Virus record (IMG/VR): IMGVR_UViG_3300015360_000104
Span: 1 to 36,739 of that record
Length of the DNA stretch: 36,739 bases
DNA from: a virus
Strand: one strand, 5' to 3'
Position 1 is the first letter of the stretch. Each line of letters starts with the position of its first letter. The notes beneath the pieces were generated by a model. It saw nothing but the letters and a program-made list of their open reading frames with translations. It did not search any database and had not been told where the DNA came from. Shown here piece by piece: positions 3,867 to 19,266 of the stretch. The position numbers and the translations under genes were made by a program.

Positions 3867-6325
3867 CAGAGCTTCTCCTCAATTACCATGTCGCGCACCT
3901 GCAAGCGGCCCGGGCGTTGCTGCGTCACCACCAGCGTGGTGCCGGTGATCGAGCCCAGCATGCCGCTGCGCCTGGCCTGTCCGGTGAAGGGTTTCGGCGC
4001 CCGGTCGAGAACCGTCGTGGTCTTGCTCAATGTCACGGTTTCGGGCGGCTGGCTGTTGGCGCCAACCGCCAGCGACGTCGTGGCGATGACTTCGAGCGTC
4101 ACCGAGTGAATGCGCCCCGGCCGCTTAACGATCTCATCGTTGCGGTTGATGAAGGTTCGCGGCATGCCTTCCCAGCGTGGGCACTGCCACGGCCCCACGC
4201 GCAATGGCCCCATGTAAGTTGCATCAAGGCTGATGGCGCCGCCCACCACGTCGAACGGGCCTTCGACATAGCCGCCCTGTTCAACCCACACAGCGCGGCC
4301 CTCGTGCAGCTCAAGGCCCGAAACCACGCCCGCCAGATCGGCGGTCGCATCGATTGCGGCCTGCAGCAGGGTGCCGTCATCCTGGCGCTCGTGGCGCAGC
4401 TTGGCCCCGCGCCGCACCGCCATCCGCACCTGATTGGCGGCGTCGATCAGAATTTCAACAACTTCGCCCGATGCCGCCGGCACCCATTCGCAAAAACCCA
4501 CGATCTCCTGGCTTTCAATGACGCAGGCCGCCACCAGCCGCCCGTCCTGGCGCAACAGCCACAGCTTCGCCGCATCGGCCGTGCGTGACGGCTTCTGGGT
4601 TTCGAGCCGGATGACATTCTTAACCAGATGCGTGGCGAAGATGTGCTCGGGCACCGGTTGAAAGCTGGTTTCGATCTCGGAGTAACTTAAGGACAGAAGC
4701 TGGTTGCCGCCGGCGCCCCGGTCGTCGGGATTGGCACCGATGAAATAAATCTTGTTCTCGGCCAGCACCGGGTCGCAGTTGAGGGCGATGCCGATGTCGG
4801 CCACGCGCACGAAGTTCAAAGGGTCGGTCTTGTTGATGGTGCGGTTCGAGGCGAAGTAAACGCTGCGGTCGCTGAAGGCCAGAAGATAGACGCTCTCGGC
4901 AAAGGCCAGAATGCGCTCCGATGTCTGCCCGCCGCGTAAGCGGTCGAGGCGCGGTGCCGCAGGCCCGGCAATCTCGATGTCGAGGCGGAAATATTCGCCG
5001 GCCTGGCTCATGGCAATGGCCGATGGCTCCACCTTGATATCGCCATAGAGCAAGCGCTCCTGGGCAAAGCCGAAAGCGCCGGGCCAGCCGCGCAGGTTTG
5101 AAAACAGCGGCTCATAATCGGTCTCGCCAATCTGCAGGTGAGAAGCCAGTGCCGCCGCATCCGCCGTGTTGCTGATCGCCGCCACCAAGCCATATTCGGC
5201 ACCCGAAAGATCGCCGCCAAAGGTAATGTTGATTTCATACCAGTTGCCGGGCTTGTCGGCGATCGCCACCGTCACCGTGGGGCCAAGCGACGGCAGGGCT
5301 TCGATTGCGGTTTTGAGCAGTGCCGCCGTCACCACCAGGTCGACGCCCCCGGAGCCGACAAACACCGGCAGGCTGGCAGCATCGACAAAACTGATGGCCG
5401 GCGTCGTCTCATCGTTGACGGTGATGGTGACATAGGCATAGATGCTGTTGCCGGTCCAGTTGACGCTGACAATCCACACGTCGTCGGTCTTGGTGTAAAC
5501 CGCGCCCAGATCAACCTTCGGCAAGCCGTCATAGGGCCACAGGTCGCGCACCCATTGCCGATCGTTGCCGCCGCGCCGCACCCGCTGGGTTTCAAGGTTC
5601 CTGTGCGCAATGCCAATGGTGGCATTCTCGGCATAGAAATTGCTCCGCCACACCAGGCTGCCGTCGACGTCCGGCAGATAGACCGCCGCCACGAATTGGT
5701 CATCCTTCCAGATATCGAGCAGCTTCGGCCCCAGCGCCATGAAATAGCGCGAACCGTCGTCATGGCGCATGGCCGCATAGCGCGGCTCGGCCTGTCCGGC
5801 GGTTTCCGCCAGCACACTCACCGTGCCAAGCGTGATGCTGGCGGAGACGGAGAACACCGCCACCACACGGATCGAGTTGGCCACGCGGCCAGCACCCGGT
5901 GCTGCCGCAAAGGTCAGGCTTTGCGCCGCCGTTCCGGCTTCAAGGCTGGCACCCAGCTTCACCCACAGGCCGCCGCGCCGGGTTTCGGCATAGACCTCGT
6001 GCAGCCCGGTGCTGGCCATCAGCGCCGCGCAGTCGATGGCCACCACGGCGCCGCCGACGGTTGCCTGATAGATCGTCTGCGTTCCCGTGTGCGGCCCCGC
6101 CGAAACCGTGATGGCGCTTTTCTCTAAAGCTTCCACGGTGCCGCGCACCGGGCCAAGGTCAAGGCTTCCCGCCATCAGCCGGAAGCCCGACAACGGCACC
6201 GGCTCGATGTTCTTGTAGGCGATGCCCGCCGAATAGAATTGCTTGATGTCGGCGCGGCCCGAAGCATCGGGCGAAAGTTCGCCGGCATTGGCGCTGCGAT
6301 AGGGCGCCCCGGCCTTGGCCACCAT
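3866..6325 (-). CDS. Tail tubular protein B / nozzle-like (T7 gp12-like)
   Basis: This 819-aa protein would form the end of the short tail tube. The N-terminus has the signature common in such nozzle proteins: a Gly-Glu-Leu-Ser-Pro turn (about residues 15-19), a Gly-Arg-x-Asp (23-26) and then Tyr and Asn positions. The rest is beta-rich with many Trp and Tyr residues and no transmembrane segment. Near residue 720 a 'GPLRVGPWQCPRWEGMPRTF' stretch precedes a beta-rich C-terminus. It follows directly on the gp11-like gene with a one-base TGATG overlap, the same pairing as gp11-gp12 in T7. Length is close to T7 gp12 (about 790 aa). Assignment is from pattern recognition plus order. Confidence 0.75.
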   Translation of the reverse strand: MVAKAGAPYRSANAGELSPDASGRADIKQFYSAGIAYKNIEPVPLSGFRLMAGSLDLGPVRGTVEALEKSAITVSAGPHTGTQTIYQATVGGAVVAIDCAALMASTGLHEVYAETRRGGLWVKLGASLEAGTAAQSLTFAAAPGAGRVANSIRVVAVFSVSASITLGTVSVLAETAGQAEPRYAAMRHDDGSRYFMALGPKLLDIWKDDQFVAAVYLPDVDGSLVWRSNFYAENATIGIAHRNLETQRVRRGGNDRQWVRDLWPYDGLPKVDLGAVYTKTDDVWIVSVNWTGNSIYAYVTITVNDETTPAISFVDAASLPVFVGSGGVDLVVTAALLKTAIEALPSLGPTVTVAIADKPGNWYEINITFGGDLSGAEYGLVAAISNTADAAALASHLQIGETDYEPLFSNLRGWPGAFGFAQERLLYGDIKVEPSAIAMSQAGEYFRLDIEIAGPAAPRLDRLRGGQTSERILAFAESVYLLAFSDRSVYFASNRTINKTDPLNFVRVADIGIALNCDPVLAENKIYFIGANPDDRGAGGNQLLSLSYSEIETSFQPVPEHIFATHLVKNVIRLETQKPSRTADAAKLWLLRQDGRLVAACVIESQEIVGFCEWVPAASGEVVEILIDAANQVRMAVRRGAKLRHERQDDGTLLQAAIDATADLAGVVSGLELHEGRAVWVEQGGYVEGPFDVVGGAISLDATYMGPLRVGPWQCPRWEGMPRTFINRNDEIVKRPGRIHSVTLEVIATTSLAVGANSQPPETVTLSKTTTVLDRAPKPFTGQARRSGMLGSITGTTLVVTQQRPGRLQVRDMVIEEKL

Positions 6326-6948
6326 CAGCCATGCCTCGCTTGTGTGAGCGGGTCGTTGGCCATGAAGCCACGGCCCTGCGGCTGGGCGGCGCGGTTCAGG
6401 GCAATCAACCTTCCGAACATGCCGCCGCTGCCATTGTCGCGTGGTGGCCCGAAGGCGTCAGCCGTCTTCATTGCCGCCAGCTCTTCGTCCTGCAACAGCG
6501 GAATGGCGAACTCGCCAGACAGCGCCACGGTGAAGGCCTCGGCAAATCCGGCATCCCATTGCGACGGATCGGAAGCCACGCGCACGCGCACCCACAATTT
6601 AGGAATATTGGCATAGACATTGCCAGCCTCGAGCATGAAGTGGCGGAGATATGTTTCGGGATTGATCGACGAAAGGATGGCGAGCGGATCGCCGATGCGC
6701 GTGCCCGGCAATGGAAAGCCATGAGCCCAGCCATTTGAGGGCGTGGTGGCATGCCTGTCGGGCTTCATTGTCTGGCGAAAATGCGTCCAGTCGTAAATCG
6801 CCGTCACGCGGGCTTCGAGACCCGGCCAGATCATGTCGACGACACCCGCCAACGAGCTTTCCTCGCCGTCGATATAGGAAGGAGGCTGGCCCAGCTTGAC
6901 CAGCGCCCGGTTGACGATTTCAACTTTCGCCCGCGCGCTGTCGCTCAT
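6325..6948 (-). CDS. Tail tubular protein A / adaptor (T7 gp11-like)
   Basis: This 207-aa protein probably forms the adaptor ring between portal and nozzle. The N-terminus (EIVNRALVKLGQPP) is the usual opening of gp11-like proteins: a helix containing 'N-A-L-x-x-L-G', then an Asp/Glu-rich turn and a helix ending in 'YDWTHFRQ'. The middle includes PGTRIGDPLAIL and a beta segment around WVRVRVASDP, also family-like. The start ATG is preceded by GGGGAGG at a good distance. It precedes the nozzle gene with a one-base overlap, as expected. Length is near that of T7 gp11 (196 aa). Confidence 0.78.
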   Translation of the reverse strand: MSDSARAKVEIVNRALVKLGQPPSYIDGEESSLAGVVDMIWPGLEARVTAIYDWTHFRQTMKPDRHATTPSNGWAHGFPLPGTRIGDPLAILSSINPETYLRHFMLEAGNVYANIPKLWVRVRVASDPSQWDAGFAEAFTVALSGEFAIPLLQDEELAAMKTADAFGPPRDNGSGGMFGRLIALNRAAQPQGRGFMANDPLTQARHG

Positions 6949-6989
6949 GCCAGCCTCCCCGTTCTTGCTAAAGTTCGTGCCGTATCGGA

Positions 6990-7271
6990 TTAAGCGCCCG
7001 AGGCGTCGGTGTTGATCGCCACCGTGACATTGCCCGACGTTGGAACGGTGAGCACGATCATCGTAATGCGGTCAGCCACGCCGGTTGCCACGCACAGGGC
7101 TTCGATCACGTCGTTGACTTGCAGTTTCGAGCGGGCGTTGTTGAAATACCCCGCCGCGATCACCGTGGCGACGGCATCGGGCGTGGCATAGACGTAGAAG
7201 TTGACCGGCACCACATCGGCGGTGTGCGGCACGGAAGCCTGAAGCAGAAGGCTTGTCAGTTTGAGCGCCAT
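6990..7271 (-). CDS. Small protein after the major capsid gene (unknown, possible decoration)
   Basis: This 93-aa protein is not recognised as a named family. It is rich in Val, Ala and Thr with alternating hydrophobic residues, suggesting a small beta-sandwich, and has no signal peptide or Cys pair. An AGAGGA ribosome site lies just upstream of the ATG at 7271. It sits between the capsid gene and the gp11-like gene, behind a terminator-like hairpin. This is a place where podoviruses often carry head decoration or head-completion proteins, so that role is a guess. The gene is probably real because of the ribosome site and sensible composition. Confidence 0.6.
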   Translation of the reverse strand: MALKLTSLLLQASVPHTADVVPVNFYVYATPDAVATVIAAGYFNNARSKLQVNDVIEALCVATGVADRITMIVLTVPTSGNVTVAINTDASGA

Positions 7272-11496: not shown

Positions 11497-11893
11497 CGCG
11501 TTGACCCCTTTTCGAAATCCATATCTGGCCGTCCTTGAGGCCCACAGGCCTGAAGCCCGAAAGCCCGGCCATGCGCTGGGCAGCCCAATTGCTTTCGCGC
11601 ACCCGCACCACGGCCATGACGCCATCTTGCCCCAGCCGCTGAAGCGTCAATTGCGCCAGATGGATCAAGGCCAGCATGTGACTTTGAGCGAGAGGCCGGA
11701 AGTGGATTGACACCTCGACGCGGGTTTTCCGGTGCCACTGCATCATCACCAGCGCGAGGGCGTGGCCATCGTCCGTCTCGATCACTTCGGAAGGGAATTT
11801 CCTGACCTGCCACAGCAGCGCCTTCCTGAGCAGGCTGCGGGCTCCGGCAAACTCCAGCGCATCGGTTTCAGTGGCCGGCCTTGCCCTCACCAC
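11414..11893 (-). CDS. GNAT acyltransferase-like protein
   Basis: This 159-aa protein has a GNAT-like layout: an N-terminal VRARPATETDALEFA opening, a beta-hairpin with GHALALVMMQWHR, a helix (HMLALIHLAQLTLQRLGQDG) and then 'VVRVRESNWAAQRMAGLSGFRPVG', which resembles the C-terminal GNAT motif of N-x-x-A followed by a Gly-Phe. The acetyl-CoA loop (Q-x-x-G-x-G/A) is not clear, so activity is doubtful. Similar small acyltransferase-like proteins occur between terminase and portal genes of short-tailed phages. GTG start at 11893 (or the next GTG at 11890) overlaps the terminase stop. The last 28 codons overlap the next gene and may be a read-on beyond the natural domain end. Confidence 0.55.
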   Translation of the reverse strand: MVRARPATETDALEFAGARSLLRKALLWQVRKFPSEVIETDDGHALALVMMQWHRKTRVEVSIHFRPLAQSHMLALIHLAQLTLQRLGQDGVMAVVRVRESNWAAQRMAGLSGFRPVGLKDGQIWISKRGQRDGANVHRTVWQQGPGKAATADARTAER

Positions 11894-13698
11894 AGCTTCA
11901 CAGCGCCAACCGCATCCTTGGGCGTCACGTTGCCGCGCAGTGGCGTCACATTGCCGCCACGCCCCATGTTCGACACGCTGTTGATGATGCCGGTGCGCCC
12001 GCGATGCCCGAGGCAGAGATATTGCAGCGCATCATGGATGTGGGAATATTCGTTCTTGGCCACCGCCAGCTTGTCGGTATTGCCGGCCGTCGCCTGCTTG
12101 GTCAGCTTGTAATGCGCCGCGAAGCCGCCGATCAGGCGGCGGCAGCGCGGGTCGATCAGCAGGCGCGGCGTCCGGGTGTCGATGTTGCCCAGATACCAGC
12201 GCACCGCGTCCTGACGCACCCCCGGCTCGTTGCTTTCGGTGGGTTCAATGTTGATCGACAACGCCCTGGCCACGATCTCCACCCAGGCCAGCTCGCCCGC
12301 CGCCTTGTCGGCGCCATAGAACGAGGATGGATCGGCAAACGCCTTGCGGATGGGAAAGCCCGCGAAATCATTGAGCAAACGCGCATAGATCATTTCGGCA
12401 AAGCGCGACGGCCCGGTGCCGGGATCGGCGCATATCTCGGCCAGCGCCCGCAACTGGCCATTGGGCATGAACTGCCCGATGATGGCGGCGGGCGATCCCC
12501 CGGCATCCATGCCAATGGCCAGCGGCAGGCCGAGCGAGGGCCTCAGCGGCTCATCGCTGCGGTGCACCTGAAGGGCGAATTCCTGTTCATAGACCGGCCT
12601 GCCGTCAAGCGCATAGCCGGGCTCGCCATGGACGAAGCGCCTTGCGTCATAGGCCGTCATCGTCTGCAGGTCCTGCTCGTAGGAAGCCCTGGTCTTGCCC
12701 AGGCGGTTCTCGGCATCGGGGCTCAATCCCGAAGGCTGGCGGAACAAGCGGTAGAGCGGCCATTTCTCCGGCTCCTCGATCAGCCGCTTGATCACCCAAT
12801 TGTCAACGTCGGGCGGGTTGCAGTCGCCCCACAGCATGCGTGGCAACAGCACGTCGTCATCGCCCAGGTTGATGCCCGCCGTCATCATCGCCTGGCGATA
12901 GGGCGCCATCACCCGGTCAAGATCGGCTGGCGCAATCTGGTCCATCGATGGAAAGCGCCCGGTGCGCGAGAACATCAGGCCGGGGATGCGCTCCGAGAAC
13001 AGGTCGCACTCGTTTAGCCACACGAAGCTGGTCTCGAAGCCCTTGGCAAACTGCTCCGGATTGGTGTCACCAACGGCCGCGAACAGCGCCATGAACTCGA
13101 CCTTGACTTTGGTGCGGTCGCGGATCGTCGCCCATTCCAGCTTGTGCACCACCGGGCGGTCAATGCCGCCGGTATATTCAACCGTGAACGGATGCTTTTC
13201 CGGAAACAGCCGCTCGTTGTGCCAGCTCTCCAGCGCGGTTCTGGCCATGTCGCGGTAGGTGGGGCGCAGCACCGTCAGCTTAACCCTGACAACCCCGTCC
13301 TTGCAGATCGGAAACCAGTTGGAGGCCAGGTGCGGTCCCTTGAAGGCAGACGCCACCGTCTTGCCCGAACCTGCGGGCCCCATGATGATGGGCACGGGAT
13401 GGCGGCTTTCGATGTAAGCCGCCGCCACCGGCCCTGGCGGCGCATAGCGCTGAAACTGATACCCGTCCGCCACCTGTTCCCAGACCCTTCCCCGTTTCTG
13501 GGTCCAGTTTATTTTGGGCGGCGCATGGTCAACTGCCTTGTCGCAAGCGGGGTGTGCGTGAAAGGCCACCCCCATGGGAGGGAGGGGCGGCGGCGGTTTT
13601 GAAATTCGGAAATCCGGCGGCAGGCTCCGGGCCATCGGTGGCCGGCCTCGTGGCAGGCCTCGTGGCAGGTTTTGTGGCAGGCCACCGATGGCCAGCAC
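11887..13698 (-). CDS. terL: Terminase large subunit (packaging ATPase and nuclease)
   Basis: This 603-aa protein pumps and cuts phage DNA. The ATPase half has Walker A GPAGSGKT (residues 107-114) and a Walker B-like FVWLNECD (about 225-232), where the catalytic Glu is present but the Asp before it is Asn. The nuclease half is RNase H-like, with D398 in IGMDAGG, a DP at 456-457 and D556 in HIHDALQYL. The N-terminal 45 residues are Pro/Arg-rich and partly made by a 12-base tandem repeat, so the true start is uncertain. GTG at 13698, ATG at 13635 and ATG at 13575 are all in frame and none has a strong ribosome site. The small subunit lies 25 bases upstream. Confidence 0.92.
   Translation of the reverse strand: MLAIGGLPQNLPRGLPRGRPPMARSLPPDFRISKPPPPLPPMGVAFHAHPACDKAVDHAPPKINWTQKRGRVWEQVADGYQFQRYAPPGPVAAAYIESRHPVPIIMGPAGSGKTVASAFKGPHLASNWFPICKDGVVRVKLTVLRPTYRDMARTALESWHNERLFPEKHPFTVEYTGGIDRPVVHKLEWATIRDRTKVKVEFMALFAAVGDTNPEQFAKGFETSFVWLNECDLFSERIPGLMFSRTGRFPSMDQIAPADLDRVMAPYRQAMMTAGINLGDDDVLLPRMLWGDCNPPDVDNWVIKRLIEEPEKWPLYRLFRQPSGLSPDAENRLGKTRASYEQDLQTMTAYDARRFVHGEPGYALDGRPVYEQEFALQVHRSDEPLRPSLGLPLAIGMDAGGSPAAIIGQFMPNGQLRALAEICADPGTGPSRFAEMIYARLLNDFAGFPIRKAFADPSSFYGADKAAGELAWVEIVARALSINIEPTESNEPGVRQDAVRWYLGNIDTRTPRLLIDPRCRRLIGGFAAHYKLTKQATAGNTDKLAVAKNEYSHIHDALQYLCLGHRGRTGIINSVSNMGRGGNVTPLRGNVTPKDAVGAVKLW
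13630..13693. repeat. Inverted repeat enclosing a three-copy 12-base repeat at the terL start
   Basis: GGCCATCGGTGGCC (13630-13643) is matched perfectly by its reverse complement GGCCACCGATGGCC (13680-13693). Between them the plus strand reads GGCCTCGTGGCA twice and then GGTTTTGTGGCA, a 12-base unit present about three times. The block lies within the first 25 codons of the longest terL frame. It could be a packaging-initiation site, a regulatory hairpin, or a recent duplication. Confidence 0.7.
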
Positions 13699-13723
13699 TT
13701 GGAGCGAGGCAGCTGATTTACAG

Positions 13724-14290
13724 TCAGCTGCCTTCGACGCCTAACGTTTTGATATCGCTTGCATTTTCTGTTTCGTGCGGCGACTTATCATCTTGCCGCA
13801 CGCCATCGTCAACGCTAACCCATTGATTTTGCTCAATCAGGCTTGCAATTTCCGGCGTCAGCTGTCCGGTTACAAACATGTGCAGTTTCTTGCTGACGAT
13901 CTCCATCGCCTGCGGCTTCCGCGCCAGCTTATAGGGCATCAGGTCCGCCGCCGCCTTGATCTGAAGCTTCAACACCTCGATCGGTTCCGCCCCCAGCTTC
14001 CGTGCCAGCGCCTTCACATCGGCGCTGATCACCTCCATCAGCAGCACCTCAGGTGCCTTGAAGCCGCGCGCCTCCAGGTAGTCGAACATCTCGTCATTGC
14101 GCTTATTCACAGCGCCTTCCGGCCTTCCCCTACCCCGCCGGATGCCGTTGGACTGTTCGGCTTGATCGCCAAGCAAATCAAACTGTTGAACGCCAGTCGC
14201 CGCAATGTCCAGGGCCGGAAATTCCAGCGCCAGACGTGTCCGCGCCTCTGCCTGCCCCTGTTTGGCGTCAGCCATGGCGCCGCAACCCAT
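13724..14290 (-). CDS. Terminase small subunit
   Basis: This 188-aa protein should recognise phage DNA and load the large terminase. The middle holds 'RRGRGRPEGAVNKRNDEMFDYL' (about residues 51-72), a Gly-Arg-Pro-x-Gly-x-x-Asn-Lys pattern common at the start of phage DNA-packaging small subunits. It is followed by helices (VLLMEVISADVKALARKLG; EVLKLQIKAAADLMPY) and an acidic C-terminal tail (VDDGVRQDDKSPHETEN). It is the first gene of the late minus-strand block and faces the repeat-rich control region. Start is ATG at 14290 or ATG at 14275; neither has a clear ribosome site. Confidence 0.72.
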   Translation of the reverse strand: MGCGAMADAKQGQAEARTRLALEFPALDIAATGVQQFDLLGDQAEQSNGIRRGRGRPEGAVNKRNDEMFDYLEARGFKAPEVLLMEVISADVKALARKLGAEPIEVLKLQIKAAADLMPYKLARKPQAMEIVSKKLHMFVTGQLTPEIASLIEQNQWVSVDDGVRQDDKSPHETENASDIKTLGVEGS

Positions 14291-14296
14291 ATTTAA

Positions 14297-14542
14297 ATCC
14301 GGTTACCATTTGCGCCCAAGTGGTAACGAATTGGTTATCGATTTTCCCGTGTTCTTCCAATGAGATATACATCATTTAACCATAATAACCAAAACAACCA
14401 CATCGCGTGTATGCGCCAGCGCATGCGCGCACGCGAGAGGGGTGCTGAAAGTGGTTATTTTGGTTGTCATCTAAGCAACACCTTGATTTAATTGGATTTT
14501 ATCGACAACCATCCGGTTACCATTGGTTACCAAAATAACCAC
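14297..14542. repeat. Cluster of GGTTA-type repeats (iteron- or operator-like)
   Basis: Two families are seen. ATCCGGTTACCATT occurs exactly twice, at 14297-14310 and 14511-14524. A 15-base element, consensus WACCAAAAYAACCAC, occurs three times: 14387-14401 (plus), 14451-14465 (minus) and 14528-14542 (plus), with one or two mismatches between copies. Extra half-sites (TGGTAAC at 14321, GGTTATC at 14333) lie between. Spacing between the three elements is 64 and 77 bases. Confidence 0.75.
14364..14392 (-). promoter_or_regulatory. Weak sigma70-like promoter facing the small terminase
   Basis: On the minus strand TTGGTT (14392-14387), a 17-base gap and TATATC (14369-14364) form a poor match to the sigma70 consensus. 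The -35 lies inside the first 15-base repeat element, so that element could be an activator or repressor site for late transcription. This is the only promoter-like sequence I see upstream of the late block. Confidence 0.3.
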
Positions 14543-14624
14543 ACCCGACCCCGGCGGTTCACAAAGCCAGCATTGAGCATTACGCCCGCCGTCAACTGCT
14601 TGCGCAGCAAAGTCCGCATTCCGA

Positions 14625-14684: not shown

Positions 14685-14713
14685 TTGACAATATAATGCA
14701 CTGGCATTATATT
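14685..14713 (+). promoter_or_regulatory. Strong promoter with internal operator for the 14760 operon
   Basis: TTGACA (14685-14690), a 17-base spacer and TATATT (14708-14713) make a near-consensus sigma70 promoter, the best in the window. A perfect inverted repeat of AATATAATGC (14690-14699) and GCATTATATT (14704-14713), with spacer ACTG, fills the spacer and overlaps both boxes. A repressor bound there would block RNA polymerase; the HTH protein encoded by the second gene of the operon is the obvious candidate. Confidence 0.8.
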
Positions 14714-14759
14714 TTAATCATCATCAACGGGCAGCGCGCCCACCTCACAGGAGACGATA

Positions 14760-15002
14760 ATGAAAACATCCTTCGTAACATTTTCTACAGCGTCGATGAA
14801 CATCCTCGCGCACGCCGACACGATTGAAGCGGCCCGCAAATATGCTGGCGACACTGATGACTATGCCGTTATTTTTGAGTGTCCGGCCGTCGAAGCTGAG
14901 CGACTTAGCTCCTACGTTTTGCCGCGCAGAAACATGAAAATCGTATGGCGTGGTGGCAACGACTTAGCGCAGGCTTTTCGCAACAAATCGTGGAAATGGT
15001 AA
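14760..15002 (+). CDS. 80-aa unknown, first gene of an isolated promoter-operator operon
   Basis: This small protein (MKTSFVTFST...) is not recognised. It has a beta-like start, an 'ADTIEAARKYAGDTDDYAVIFECP' segment (about residues 18-42), and a basic C-terminus with two Trp residues near the end (KSWKW). There is no signal peptide or membrane segment. AGGAG lies at a good distance before the ATG. Base composition is about half G+C, clearly lower than the phage average, which suggests separate acquisition. It is followed at once by an HTH gene, and the pair has its own strong promoter and operator. That arrangement is known for anti-CRISPR genes with Aca regulators, so an anti-defence role is plausible, though nothing in the protein itself proves it. 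Confidence 0.75.
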   Translation: MKTSFVTFSTASMNILAHADTIEAARKYAGDTDDYAVIFECPAVEAERLSSYVLPRRNMKIVWRGGNDLAQAFRNKSWKW

Positions 15003-15003
15003 T

Positions 15004-15207
15004 TTGACCCCAGCCGACCTCAAAGCCATCCGCCTCGCTCTCAATCTGAGCGGGGCGGATTTTGCTCGCCTGCTCGGCTATCAGGGCAATGGTATTCGCC
15101 AGATGATGCATAATCTGGAGAGCGGAGAGCGGCCGATCCGCGAGCCGCAGCGCAGGCTGGCGGAGGCCTATCTCGCTGGCTACAGGCCCGCCGATTGGCC
15201 CTCATAG
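15004..15207 (+). CDS. 67-aa XRE-type HTH regulator (Aca-like position)
   Basis: This small DNA-binding protein starts with TTG at 15004, two bases after the stop of the 80-aa gene, with TGGAAATGG as a possible ribosome site. Nearly the whole protein is one helix-turn-helix domain: LKAIRLALNLSGADFARLLGY forms helices 1-2, and a recognition helix follows around NGIRQMMHNLESGERPI. The C-terminus is YLAGYRPADWP. It is expected to dimerise on the inverted repeat inside the operon promoter and repress its own transcription. Its size and second-gene position are like those of anti-CRISPR-associated (Aca) regulators. It ends seven bases from the convergent helicase gene stop. Confidence 0.72.
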   Translation: MTPADLKAIRLALNLSGADFARLLGYQGNGIRQMMHNLESGERPIREPQRRLAEAYLAGYRPADWPS

Positions 15208-15214
15208 GCCGCCC

Positions 15215-17101
15215 CTACTGCTTCTCGGCGTATTCGGTGAACGCCTTCATGTCGATCAGCAGGCAGCGCTTCACCACGCCGTTGATTTTCACCACCTGCC
15301 GAATCCGGTCGCGCACCACGATATTGGGCGGCCCCTGCTTCAGGGCGGTGTTCCACACGCCCTGCCTGAATTCCGTCGTCATGAACAGCTTGTTGAGCTG
15401 CGGCCCGTCGGGCGGCACGCAGAGGAACGGGCCGTCCGATGGCTGCCCCACATAGCCCTTACGCTTACAGGTCAGGTTGACCAGCTCCAGCTTATCTTGC
15501 GCGCCACCCAGATCGACGTCGAGGCTGTCGCCATAGAGATCGTCCATCACCCCGCCGATCGTCGGCTTCTTGCCATCCCGCCAGCTTTCAATGGTGCAGG
15601 CCATCAAAAAGTTGAGACAGGAATGCCAGTTGTCGAGGCGCTCGGCCCGCTCGGCCGCCGTTGCCTCGTGGATCACTTCGGCAAGCCGTGCCTCATCCGT
15701 CACCGGCAGCCCGCACTCCTCAAGCGCCTCAGGCCCCACCAGCATTTCCGCGGCCGCCAGCAGCGTTCCGTAGGTGTCAATCGAGCGGCTGTCGATGCCC
15801 TGCAGGCCCGCCAGCAGGTTCCACCACCAGGTCCGAGCTTGGGTCGAATAACGCGGCCAGCCGTCCATCACCTGGCGCAGGATCATGCGGCCATCGGTCT
15901 CGCTGCTGATGAATTGCGGGCGCCCCTCGCCGGGCCGGGGCGTCAGCCGGGCAAGGTTCAAGACCGCCATGCGGCTCTTGTCCTGATTGCCCATCGGCGG
16001 CGGGTTGATGGCGGAGAAGAAAAACGGGCAGTAGAGCGTAAACGTGGTGCCGTGATGGTCCGATCCGCCGCGCGCCGCGCGTCCGCCTGAGTAAGCGATA
16101 CGCGCCAGCTCGATGACGTTGGTGGCCGTGTCGCTGCCCGGCTTGCTTTCAAGCTCGTCAACCATGACGGGCAGCGCGTCATGGCGCATCTGCTGATAGA
16201 TGCCGGCGGCTGTCGTGTTCTCGGCGGTGAAGACGATGCCTTTCAAAACCCGGCGGATCAGCCCCTGCATGGTTGATTTGCCGGTGCCAAAGCCGCCGCT
16301 CGTGAAGATCACCGGGCGCACATCATTTGCCGCCCCCATGAAGGCGGTGGCGATCCAGCCCAGCACCAGGATCGGATCGAGATAGGGCCGCTCCCAGTTC
16401 CATGAGCGCAGCTCCTCGAAAATGCGCCGGGCCGGGCTCTGCTCCGGCGTCACCGGGCCGTCCCACGGCTCGATGATCGGCGCCTGGCGGGTATAGAGAT
16501 AGTCCTCGATCTGGCCCGGCGGCACGTTCTGTAAGCGGCCATTGACCGAGCGCCAGAGGTATTTCCCCGAATGCCAGATGAATTCATTGTTGGAGGTCAC
16601 CCAAGCGCCGCGCCCGCGATGCTGCTTGGAAGGGTCGAAGATCGGCTTTCCCGGTTTCGAGGCCTCGTTGGAAAGGCAGGTGAACAGCTTGTCGCGCTCG
16701 ATGCGCTTAACCTTGAGAACCTCCTTCACTTCGCCACTGTCCTTGTCGGTCACCTTTTCCTTGCCAAAGGCCGGCCACGCCCAGAAGCAATAGTTGATGA
16801 AGGGCGAGAACAGGGCCGAAATCGTCGCCATGTCCCACTTTTCGATCATCACCAGATCGCCGGTGGCGCTCTTGCACCAGACTTTCTGGGCACTGTCTCG
16901 GCCGATCACTTCGACCGGGCATTGAGGCGGCAAAGTGTCATGGGGTGCTCCCTCCCATTGGCCAGCCTTGATGCCGTCGCGCGCCAGATCGGGGTGCGGG
17001 TCGGCAAGGCCAAAATCCTTGATTTCGGCATGTGAACGCCGTGCCGCCGCCCAGATGTCCTGGACGGCGGCAACGCCGGTCTTGGTGTGCTGCTTGGCCA
17101 C
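15215..17101 (-). CDS. Replicative helicase-like P-loop ATPase
   Basis: This 628-aa protein is probably the phage replication helicase. The P-loop GGFGTGKST lies at about residues 269-277, the Walker B VMVDELE at about 312-318, and a sensor Asn (N367) in FFFSAINPPP; this is the arrangement of SF3/AAA+ type viral helicases. The N-terminal 110 residues include 'LPPQCPVEVIG', seen in phage primase-helicase-like proteins, and a Trp/Phe-rich stretch. The primase activity seems to be on the separate TOPRIM gene upstream. Start is GTG at 17101, ten bases after the stop of the 179-aa gene. It ends facing the HTH gene at 15207. No DNA polymerase gene was seen, so elongation must use the host enzyme. 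Confidence 0.7.
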   Translation of the reverse strand: MAKQHTKTGVAAVQDIWAAARRSHAEIKDFGLADPHPDLARDGIKAGQWEGAPHDTLPPQCPVEVIGRDSAQKVWCKSATGDLVMIEKWDMATISALFSPFINYCFWAWPAFGKEKVTDKDSGEVKEVLKVKRIERDKLFTCLSNEASKPGKPIFDPSKQHRGRGAWVTSNNEFIWHSGKYLWRSVNGRLQNVPPGQIEDYLYTRQAPIIEPWDGPVTPEQSPARRIFEELRSWNWERPYLDPILVLGWIATAFMGAANDVRPVIFTSGGFGTGKSTMQGLIRRVLKGIVFTAENTTAAGIYQQMRHDALPVMVDELESKPGSDTATNVIELARIAYSGGRAARGGSDHHGTTFTLYCPFFFSAINPPPMGNQDKSRMAVLNLARLTPRPGEGRPQFISSETDGRMILRQVMDGWPRYSTQARTWWWNLLAGLQGIDSRSIDTYGTLLAAAEMLVGPEALEECGLPVTDEARLAEVIHEATAAERAERLDNWHSCLNFLMACTIESWRDGKKPTIGGVMDDLYGDSLDVDLGGAQDKLELVNLTCKRKGYVGQPSDGPFLCVPPDGPQLNKLFMTTEFRQGVWNTALKQGPPNIVVRDRIRQVVKINGVVKRCLLIDMKAFTEYAEKQ

Positions 17102-17662: not shown

Positions 17663-18754
17663 TCACATCAAATCGTTGAAGTCATCGCCCACATGCGACT
17701 GCATGATCACCAGCGGCTTCTCCGCCTCTGACAGTGCCTGAACGGCATCCATCAGCTGCGCCTGGGCCTGGGCGTTGCCGGCATTGTTGTCGCGCGCCAC
17801 GGTAATGTCGGACACGCATGAAAGTTGAACCGGCGCATGCCGCATGCCGGCCAGCGATCCGGCAGCCCATATGCGGGCATCGGCGATCCCCTGCGCCAGC
17901 GACAGTGCCGTTTCGATCCCCTCGCAGATGATGAGGGGATGCGGCGTTGCGCACAGCCAGAACGGCGTGGCGGATGGCCCCATGGCAATCTCGATCACCG
18001 CCCCCAGCGCCTCGCCGAACATCAGTTTGGGCGGCGCGACAGGCGCCTTGGCGGGTGTCAGCGGATCGAGAAACGTCACATGGCAGCAAGTCACGATGCC
18101 GGTGGCCTGCCGCATCGCGGTGTGCACCGCCGGGAACTTCGGCCCCGGCTTCACCCGCCGCCGCTGGCCATCGTGATAGGTCCACTCCGCCCCCTTCCAC
18201 CATTCACTGGCGGGCGAAAAGCGCAAGGTCTCGGAGTTCAGGCTGGTCACACCTTCCAGCCCGCAACCACGGCCCCTGAAATAGTCCCGCGCATGCGCCT
18301 CAGCAGCGCCACCGCTGCCACAAGGTGCCGCCAGCTCGAACAGCTCGATGGCCTTGCGCAACTTGAAGGCCCTCGCCTTCACCGCCTGTTCGGCCTCGTG
18401 GCTTTCGCGCTGTTGGGCGGCGGCACGAAACTGCTGGCGCTCCTCGCGGCTCATGGTCCTGAGCCCCAGAAAATCGCGCGCCCATTGCAGGGCGCCACGG
18501 GTATCGGTGCCAAGACAGAAGGCGATCAGTTTAATGACATCTCCCTTGTCGCCGGAACGCCAGCAAATCCACGCGCCCTTGTCGCGCTGCAGGCCGACTT
18601 TGAGGGCCGGAATTTTCTTGTCGTCCCCCGCCACGCGCGGGTTGTGGCTCACCCACATGCCGCCCTCGCGCTTGCCACGCGGAAGCAGCGCGGCGCAAAG
18701 ATCGGCGATGCGGTCTTTCAGCCCCTGCTTGATTTCGGGAATGTCGTTCAGCAT
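17663..18754 (-). CDS. TOPRIM-domain DNA primase
   Basis: This protein should synthesise RNA primers. The C-terminal half has the TOPRIM signature: PLIICEGIETALSLAQ with the catalytic Glu, then a small-residue stretch (IWAAGSLAGMRHA) and ITVARDNNAGNAQA, where the usual D-x-D is R-D-N. The N-terminal 90 residues (VSHNPRVAGDDKKIPALKV...GAWICWRSGDKGDVIKLI) have the outline of a zinc-finger primase domain but too few Cys residues to bind zinc in the usual way. ATG at 18754 shares one base with the preceding stop; a GTG one codon earlier gives a four-base overlap. It is followed by the unknown and helicase genes as a replication cassette. Confidence 0.75.
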   Translation of the reverse strand: MLNDIPEIKQGLKDRIADLCAALLPRGKREGGMWVSHNPRVAGDDKKIPALKVGLQRDKGAWICWRSGDKGDVIKLIAFCLGTDTRGALQWARDFLGLRTMSREERQQFRAAAQQRESHEAEQAVKARAFKLRKAIELFELAAPCGSGGAAEAHARDYFRGRGCGLEGVTSLNSETLRFSPASEWWKGAEWTYHDGQRRRVKPGPKFPAVHTAMRQATGIVTCCHVTFLDPLTPAKAPVAPPKLMFGEALGAVIEIAMGPSATPFWLCATPHPLIICEGIETALSLAQGIADARIWAAGSLAGMRHAPVQLSCVSDITVARDNNAGNAQAQAQLMDAVQALSEAEKPLVIMQSHVGDDFNDLM

Positions 18755-19266
18755 CACGCAATGCCCAATATCGCCGCTTCCAGCTTGCGCGCCAGGCGGT
18801 CGAAGTCCGGTTGCTCGCGCGCATCCTCGATGGCGCGTGCCGCCTGGTTCACCGCCTGCTTGGTGACGCCACAGGCGCGTGCCACATCGGCCTGGTTGAA
18901 TCCCATGGTGGTGTTCATGAGATATTGCGCCAGCCGCCTCGCGGTTGCCATGTCACACCATGCGGGGTTGAGCGTCATGCGCTTGGCCGGGTCGGATGCC
19001 TGGACCACCGCCGCATCAAGCCCCAGCGCCAGCGCGCACAGCGCCAGCGCGCAGCGATAGGTCAGCACCAGGCTCAACGGCCCCGCCACCTGACGCGCCC
19101 GAAGCCTGACGGCCACCAGCCGCAACTTGGCAAGGGTGGCCGCATTGGCACGGCGCCGCCCGGCCTTGAGCGCTGCCACATGGCTGACATGCAGGCCCGA
19201 AAGCCTGGCCACATCGGCACTGCTGATGCCGGTGAGATCATCGGGAAATGGCGCGCCATCAGGCAT
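18754..19266 (-). CDS. Protein with two helix-turn-helix segments (regulator)
   Basis: This 170-aa protein carries two HTH-like segments: SADVARLSGLHVSHVAALKAGRRR (about residues 16-39) and NQADVARACGVTKQAVNQAARAIED (about 124-148). Between them lies a hydrophobic helical region with Cys residues (ALALCALALGLDAAV). It may bind DNA in the control region or origin and act as a replication initiator-like or regulatory protein. It is the first gene of the replication cassette, behind two strong hairpins at 19331-19405. No family name is recognised. Confidence 0.6.
   Translation of the reverse strand: MPDGAPFPDDLTGISSADVARLSGLHVSHVAALKAGRRRANAATLAKLRLVAVRLRARQVAGPLSLVLTYRCALALCALALGLDAAVVQASDPAKRMTLNPAWCDMATARRLAQYLMNTTMGFNQADVARACGVTKQAVNQAARAIEDAREQPDFDRLARKLEAAILGIA

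Follow-up and report, generated by a model that had tools for sequence, protein, structure and literature searches.

A probable autoregulated accessory cassette between the terminase and primase genes of a temperate alphaproteobacterial phage

A two-gene unit on the plus strand of a phage genome, consisting of a small orphan gene followed by a gene for a 67-aa helix-turn-helix (HTH) protein under a near-consensus promoter, is very probably an autoregulated accessory cassette. We prefer to read it as an autorepressed moron cassette that a temperate phage of alphaproteobacteria carries and whose cargo acts early and most plausibly counters a host defence of some kind, a reading on which our confidence is evenly divided. 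The strengths given here to the cassette, to counter-defence and to anti-CRISPR activity in particular are judgements and were not computed. The window, meaning the whole stretch of DNA that was analyzed, is a 36.7-kb virus record, and it encodes an integrase, a UmuD-like repressor candidate, an endolysin, and head-tail and tail genes, which together indicate a temperate tailed phage. The relatives that carry organism names come from alphaproteobacteria (Stappia, Rhodobacteraceae, Bauldia), and the window phage is a temperate phage of this group.

Promoter, operator and genes of the cassette

The features of the region are as follows.
11887–13698, minus strand: large terminase gene, terL (PHROG terminase large subunit, E 2.8e-9)
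13724–14290, minus strand: putative small terminase gene, terS, left border of the slot, named from its position beside terL; relatives have homologues in this position
14291–14545, no strand assigned: repeat array with GGTTA on both strands (8 copies vs 0.12 expected)
14685–14713, plus strand: sigma70-type promoter, TTGACA-17-TATATT (11/12 consensus positions)
14690–14713, no strand assigned: perfect inverted repeat AATATAATGC-ACTG-GCATTATATT with 10-bp arms, putative operator
14749–14753, plus strand: AGGAG ribosome-binding site, recognized by its sequence
14760–15002, plus strand: P0001, open reading frame for the 80-aa orphan cargo, low GC, ATG start
15004–15207, plus strand: P0002, 67-aa XRE-type HTH protein, putative autorepressor (phrog_14076, E 1.4e-17)
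15215–17101, minus strand: primase/helicase-like protein, right border of the slot (phrog_21086, E 5e-55; DNA primase phrog_35358, E 2e-28), syntenic in relatives

As the first-pass annotation had described, the pair stands alone on the plus strand, with minus-strand terS and terL on one side and the minus-strand primase/helicase-like gene, convergent with the P0002 gene, on the other. Its promoter had been called the best sigma70 promoter of the window and is so: TTGACA (14685–14690) and TATATT (14708–14713) are separated by a 17-nt spacer, and on neither strand does the window contain another site that matches at least 11 of the 12 promoter positions, the expectation being 0.1 (mean of 60 dinucleotide shuffles). 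The inverted repeat reported over this promoter, with 10-base arms and a 4-base spacer, is indeed perfect and occupies the promoter spacer and the -10 box, and the strong ribosome site noted at the same time is the AGGAG at 14749–14753. Perfect 10-bp inverted repeats are not rare across the window (2 vs 0.67 expected); within the 216-nt intergenic stretch, the occurrence of one has P=0.002 by local shuffling. The 20-mer occurs once in the window when up to 3 mismatches are allowed, and a search of viral contigs with the repeat sequence gave at least 120 matches. It was absent from the P0002-relative loci compared (L002, L093, L115, L018 and L035). One mark of Aca proteins is an inverted repeat lying in the core promoter, between -35 and -10, and this is where the repeat at 14690–14713 lies. 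It is the predicted binding site of P0002. The other perfect 10-bp repeat is found at the terS/terL junction (13707–13733; AGGCAGCTGA...TCAGCTGCCT).

The GGTTA array lies outside the cassette. It covers 255 bp between terS and the slot, just upstream of terS, and its expectation of 0.12 copies was taken from the rest of the window. The position is conserved in relatives, where arrays are found at the equivalent place in L018 (5600–5935), L098 (3380–3640) and L097 (3480–3660), and the repeat unit is phage-specific: GGTTAC occurs 11 times in the L018 array and GGTTAG 10 times in the L098 array, with no copy elsewhere in those loci. Inside the window array there is an alternating GCGCATGCGCGCACGCG tract together with an AT-rich stretch. 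The array is possibly a replication origin or an array of regulator sites.

The pair had also been described as less GC-rich than the rest of the phage, which is true of the 80-aa gene (GC 50%, GC3 0.57) and its leader, both AT-rich, but not of the HTH gene (GC 63%, GC3 0.74), which resembles the phage as represented by terL and the primase gene (GC 63–64%, GC3 0.80–0.82). The compositionally foreign part of the pair is the cargo gene only. No credible homologue of P0001 was found in Pfam, PHROGs, NCBIfam, PADLOC, PDB sequences, phages, plasmids, viral contigs, genome contigs or 385 class-level genomes; the best match (E 0.005) falls within a long ORF and is not credible. The AlphaFold model of P0001, made from a single sequence, has a pLDDT of 57 and a low-confidence beta-beta-alpha-beta arrangement in its N-terminal half. 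Fold matches of this poor model to PII-like proteins, AcrIIC5 and AcrIC9 (Z 3 or less) were rejected as noise.

The HTH reading frame directly follows the cargo gene as annotated, although the gap is one base and not two. It starts with TTG, a start supported by homologues beginning M-T/S-P, and P0002 matches the phrog_14076 profile over its full length (residues 1–67, E 1.4e-17). This family comprises HTH proteins of alphaproteobacterial phages with a near-invariant C-terminal GYRPxDWP, which reads GYRPADWP in P0002. The AlphaFold model is helical (pLDDT 95), and all 67 aa belong to the HTH fold. Among solved structures, the closest to it are Aca10 (Z 9.5, rmsd 1.2 over 54) and Aca2 (Z 9.4, 1.1 over 56), followed less than 1 Z unit lower by SO3848, NE0471, MqsA and HigA2, and on the predicted structure the antitoxin matches are tied with the Aca matches. 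The family profile compared with the PDB matches Aca3 (E 1.2e-4), Aca2 (2.5e-3) and Aca10 (8e-3) over the HTH, with Aca3 second among 45 profile matches, behind a designed protein. This is kinship at the level of the HTH superfamily, not membership of an Aca family; AcaFinder takes query coverage above 80% with E<1e-10 as Aca homology (PMC9765179), and P0002 falls short of this against the PDB Acas compared. In size and place, P0002 does correspond to an Aca, which is a small HTH protein (<150 aa) encoded last in its operon. Members of phrog_14076 also occur in numerous phage operons that lack a known acr gene, for example mid-operon in early regions, and because such operons hold no obvious anti-defence gene, the family alone is not an acr or anti-defence marker. 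Since an integrase and a distinct UmuD-like repressor candidate are encoded elsewhere in the window, lysogeny does not have to be maintained by P0002, which was rejected as the main lysogeny repressor, its inverted repeat also being present only once. Another HTH protein of the window, 170 aa long with two HTH-like halves (18754–19266, minus strand; HTH_3, E 5e-8), is encoded directly upstream of a Toprim protein in the minus-strand replication operon.

A variable slot in which the HTH gene is kept and the cargo is swapped

In about 20 relatives found through their terminase, one interval is bordered by the terminase and terS-like genes on one side and by the gene for the same primase on the other. 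This interval is short and holds no obvious cargo gene in L028, L033, L038 and L040, whereas in other relatives it carries antirepressors of the Bro-N, Rha or Ant type, a DUF4365 protein, membrane proteins or other genes. Shared flanks around variable content indicate that the pair occupies an accessory slot, and the pair has the marks of a moron or accessory cassette: a promoter of its own, absence or replacement in close relatives and a cargo of atypical composition (GC3 0.57 vs 0.80). The slot of L031 (3677–5481, minus strand) holds the DUF4365 gene and then a gene for a 379-aa unknown protein. A primase search of 385 sampled Alphaproteobacteria gave no further locus.

The last gene of the slot operon encodes a phrog_14076/GYRPxDWP HTH protein and faces the primase in five relatives (L018, L097, L098, L100 and L115). 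Four of these (all except L018) were found by a genome search with the HTH family itself, and have the terminase on the opposite side of the slot; they therefore give no estimate of frequency, and among the terminase-sampled slots the HTH was present in 1 of 20 (L018, E 3.9e-8). The preceding genes differ. L018 carries a phrog_37844 gene and a gene for a 70-aa protein, L097 and L098 carry DUF932 and a methyltransferase similar to the methylase region found in very large phage proteins, L100 carries DUF932 and an RMF-like protein, and L115 carries small orphans of 81 and 51 aa. Since L097, L098 and L100 are mutual close relatives, their DUF932/methyltransferase operons are not independent. A matching layout with a 111-aa first gene is found in an unrelated phage (L273), so that conservation of the HTH behind different first genes, which the first-pass annotation had named as a test in related phages, was seen in L018, L097/L098, L100 and L115 and extends beyond them. 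In a plasmid-borne prophage (L274), three small genes and a phrog_14076-type HTH gene are inserted among baseplate genes. Between the HTH and primase genes of L100 lie two minus-strand genes (6255–7022; a 148-aa protein and a PadR-like protein of 105 aa) that L097 lacks at this position, which looks like the insertion of a second cassette.

The promoters of these operons vary as well. In the DUF932 operons the promoter is of the TTGAC type, and ACCAWTGGT palindromes lie immediately before the -35 box and on the spacer/-10 region. L018 and L273 have promoter-like boxes whose symmetry is weaker, and no clear inverted repeat was found at the L115 promoter. Operators that differ from one relative to another are expected of repressors with divergent specificity; because each operator differs, binding of P0002 to the repeat in the window is something that we infer.

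The role of the cargo

Known Acas bind inverted repeats in core promoters and thereby repress them (PMC9410906). By analogy, the near-consensus promoter would fire at once on the naked phage DNA after infection and give a burst of the 80-aa cargo. P0002, made from the same message, would accumulate until its dimer occupied the inverted repeat that spans the spacer and -10 box and turned the promoter off, and in a lysogen the cassette would be held at low output. Early expression is predicted, and the cargo most likely acts on the host just after entry, the countering of restriction, CRISPR or another defence being its most probable role.

We consider a counter-defence role of any kind about as probable as all other roles together. 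What makes it the most probable single role is the acr-aca-like architecture combined with the DarB-like methyltransferase in one homologous slot operon; the methyltransferase resembles polyvalent, DarB-like proteins that guard DNA against restriction, among them P1 DarB, whose protection is against type I systems (PMC5512222). Against it, no homologue of the cargo was found in the collections searched, and the window copy has no known anti-defence gene. The first-pass annotation had proposed an anti-CRISPR operon, and of this proposal the Aca-like architecture stands (promoter, core-promoter inverted repeat, cargo, small HTH gene last), but the link of the cargo to CRISPR is unsupported. Because the searches gave no homologue of P0001, nothing ties it to CRISPR or to any other particular defence as had been suggested, and an anti-CRISPR function in particular is unlikely, no likelier than anti-restriction.

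The same cassette could carry a moron with no part in defence, whose 80-aa product would affect the physiology of the host, the exclusion of superinfecting phages or the fitness of the lysogen. The mixed cargo of the homologous operons (RMF-like, DUF932 and orphan proteins), mostly of no known function, speaks for such a reading, but the methyltransferase cargo and the strong early-type promoter weakly favour counter-defence, and we regard a non-defence role as a lesser, rather doubtful prospect. A distinctly improbable alternative is a secondary-immunity module, in which P0001 would act as a small antirepressor, inactivating the repressor of the phage, and would be silenced in the lysogen by the HTH protein, as Arc and Mnt keep Ant silent in lysogens of P22. 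This reading persists because antirepressors of the Bro-N, Rha and Ant types occupy the same slot in L015, L021 and L022 (the last with an XRE gene of its own), and the window does contain a UmuD-like repressor candidate; yet those antirepressor slots are without the phrog_14076 HTH, and P0001 showed no similarity to the Bro-N, Rha or Ant families in Pfam and PHROGs.

The gene order, the sizes and the inverted repeat over the promoter would also suit a toxin-antitoxin operon in which the toxin gene precedes that of an HTH antitoxin, as in HigBA and MqsRA, and the P0002 model lies near MqsA and HigA2 (Z 8.5–8.8). However, P0001 matched no toxin family in profile and database searches, P0002 is HTH fold throughout its 67 aa with no extra domain for toxin binding, and the HTH stays while the upstream gene changes (methyltransferase, DUF932 and others), unlike in a co-evolving pair. 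The pair thus has neither the toxin domain nor the conserved partner of a type II system, and we consider this reading very unlikely.

To return to the counter-defence cassette, it is conceivable, though we hold it less probable than its negation, that the phrog_14076/GYRPxDWP HTH proteins form a new family of Aca type, a marker of exchangeable counter-defence cassettes in phages of alphaproteobacteria, and that the 80-aa orphan is an anti-defence protein not known before. If the HTH is an Aca-type repressor, it would allow anti-defence genes of these phages to be sought through guilt by association. The terminase-primase slot would then be the place to look, with a DarB-like methyltransferase, DUF932, antirepressors and several orphans already there.

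Comparison with known systems

Beside the counter-restriction genes of the DarB-like and ArdC type, the likeness lies in the L097/L098 HTH-operon cargo, whose methyltransferase resembles their methylase part; the window cargo is an unrelated 80-aa orphan. HigBA and MqsRA operons share with the pair a small first gene, an HTH gene second, a similar HTH fold and autorepression through an inverted repeat, which is presumed here, but the window pair lacks a toxin domain and its partner gene is not conserved. Among the phrog_14076 regulators of Ruegeria phages, Rhizobium phage 16-3 and alphaproteobacterial prophages, P0002 is a member by its full-length match and GYRPxDWP motif; many members lie in longer early operons, whereas P0002 belongs to a stand-alone two-gene unit. 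The acr-aca operons (Aca1–Aca10 type) resemble the cassette in their near-consensus promoter, core-promoter inverted repeat, small unique first protein, small HTH protein last, moron location, and retention of the HTH while the cargo varies, and the predicted P0002 fold is nearest to Aca10 and Aca2. They differ in that no Acr homologue of P0001 was found in the collections searched, that P0002 is related in sequence only at the superfamily level (E 1e-4 to 1e-2), and that the cargo beside P0002 homologues includes large enzymes.
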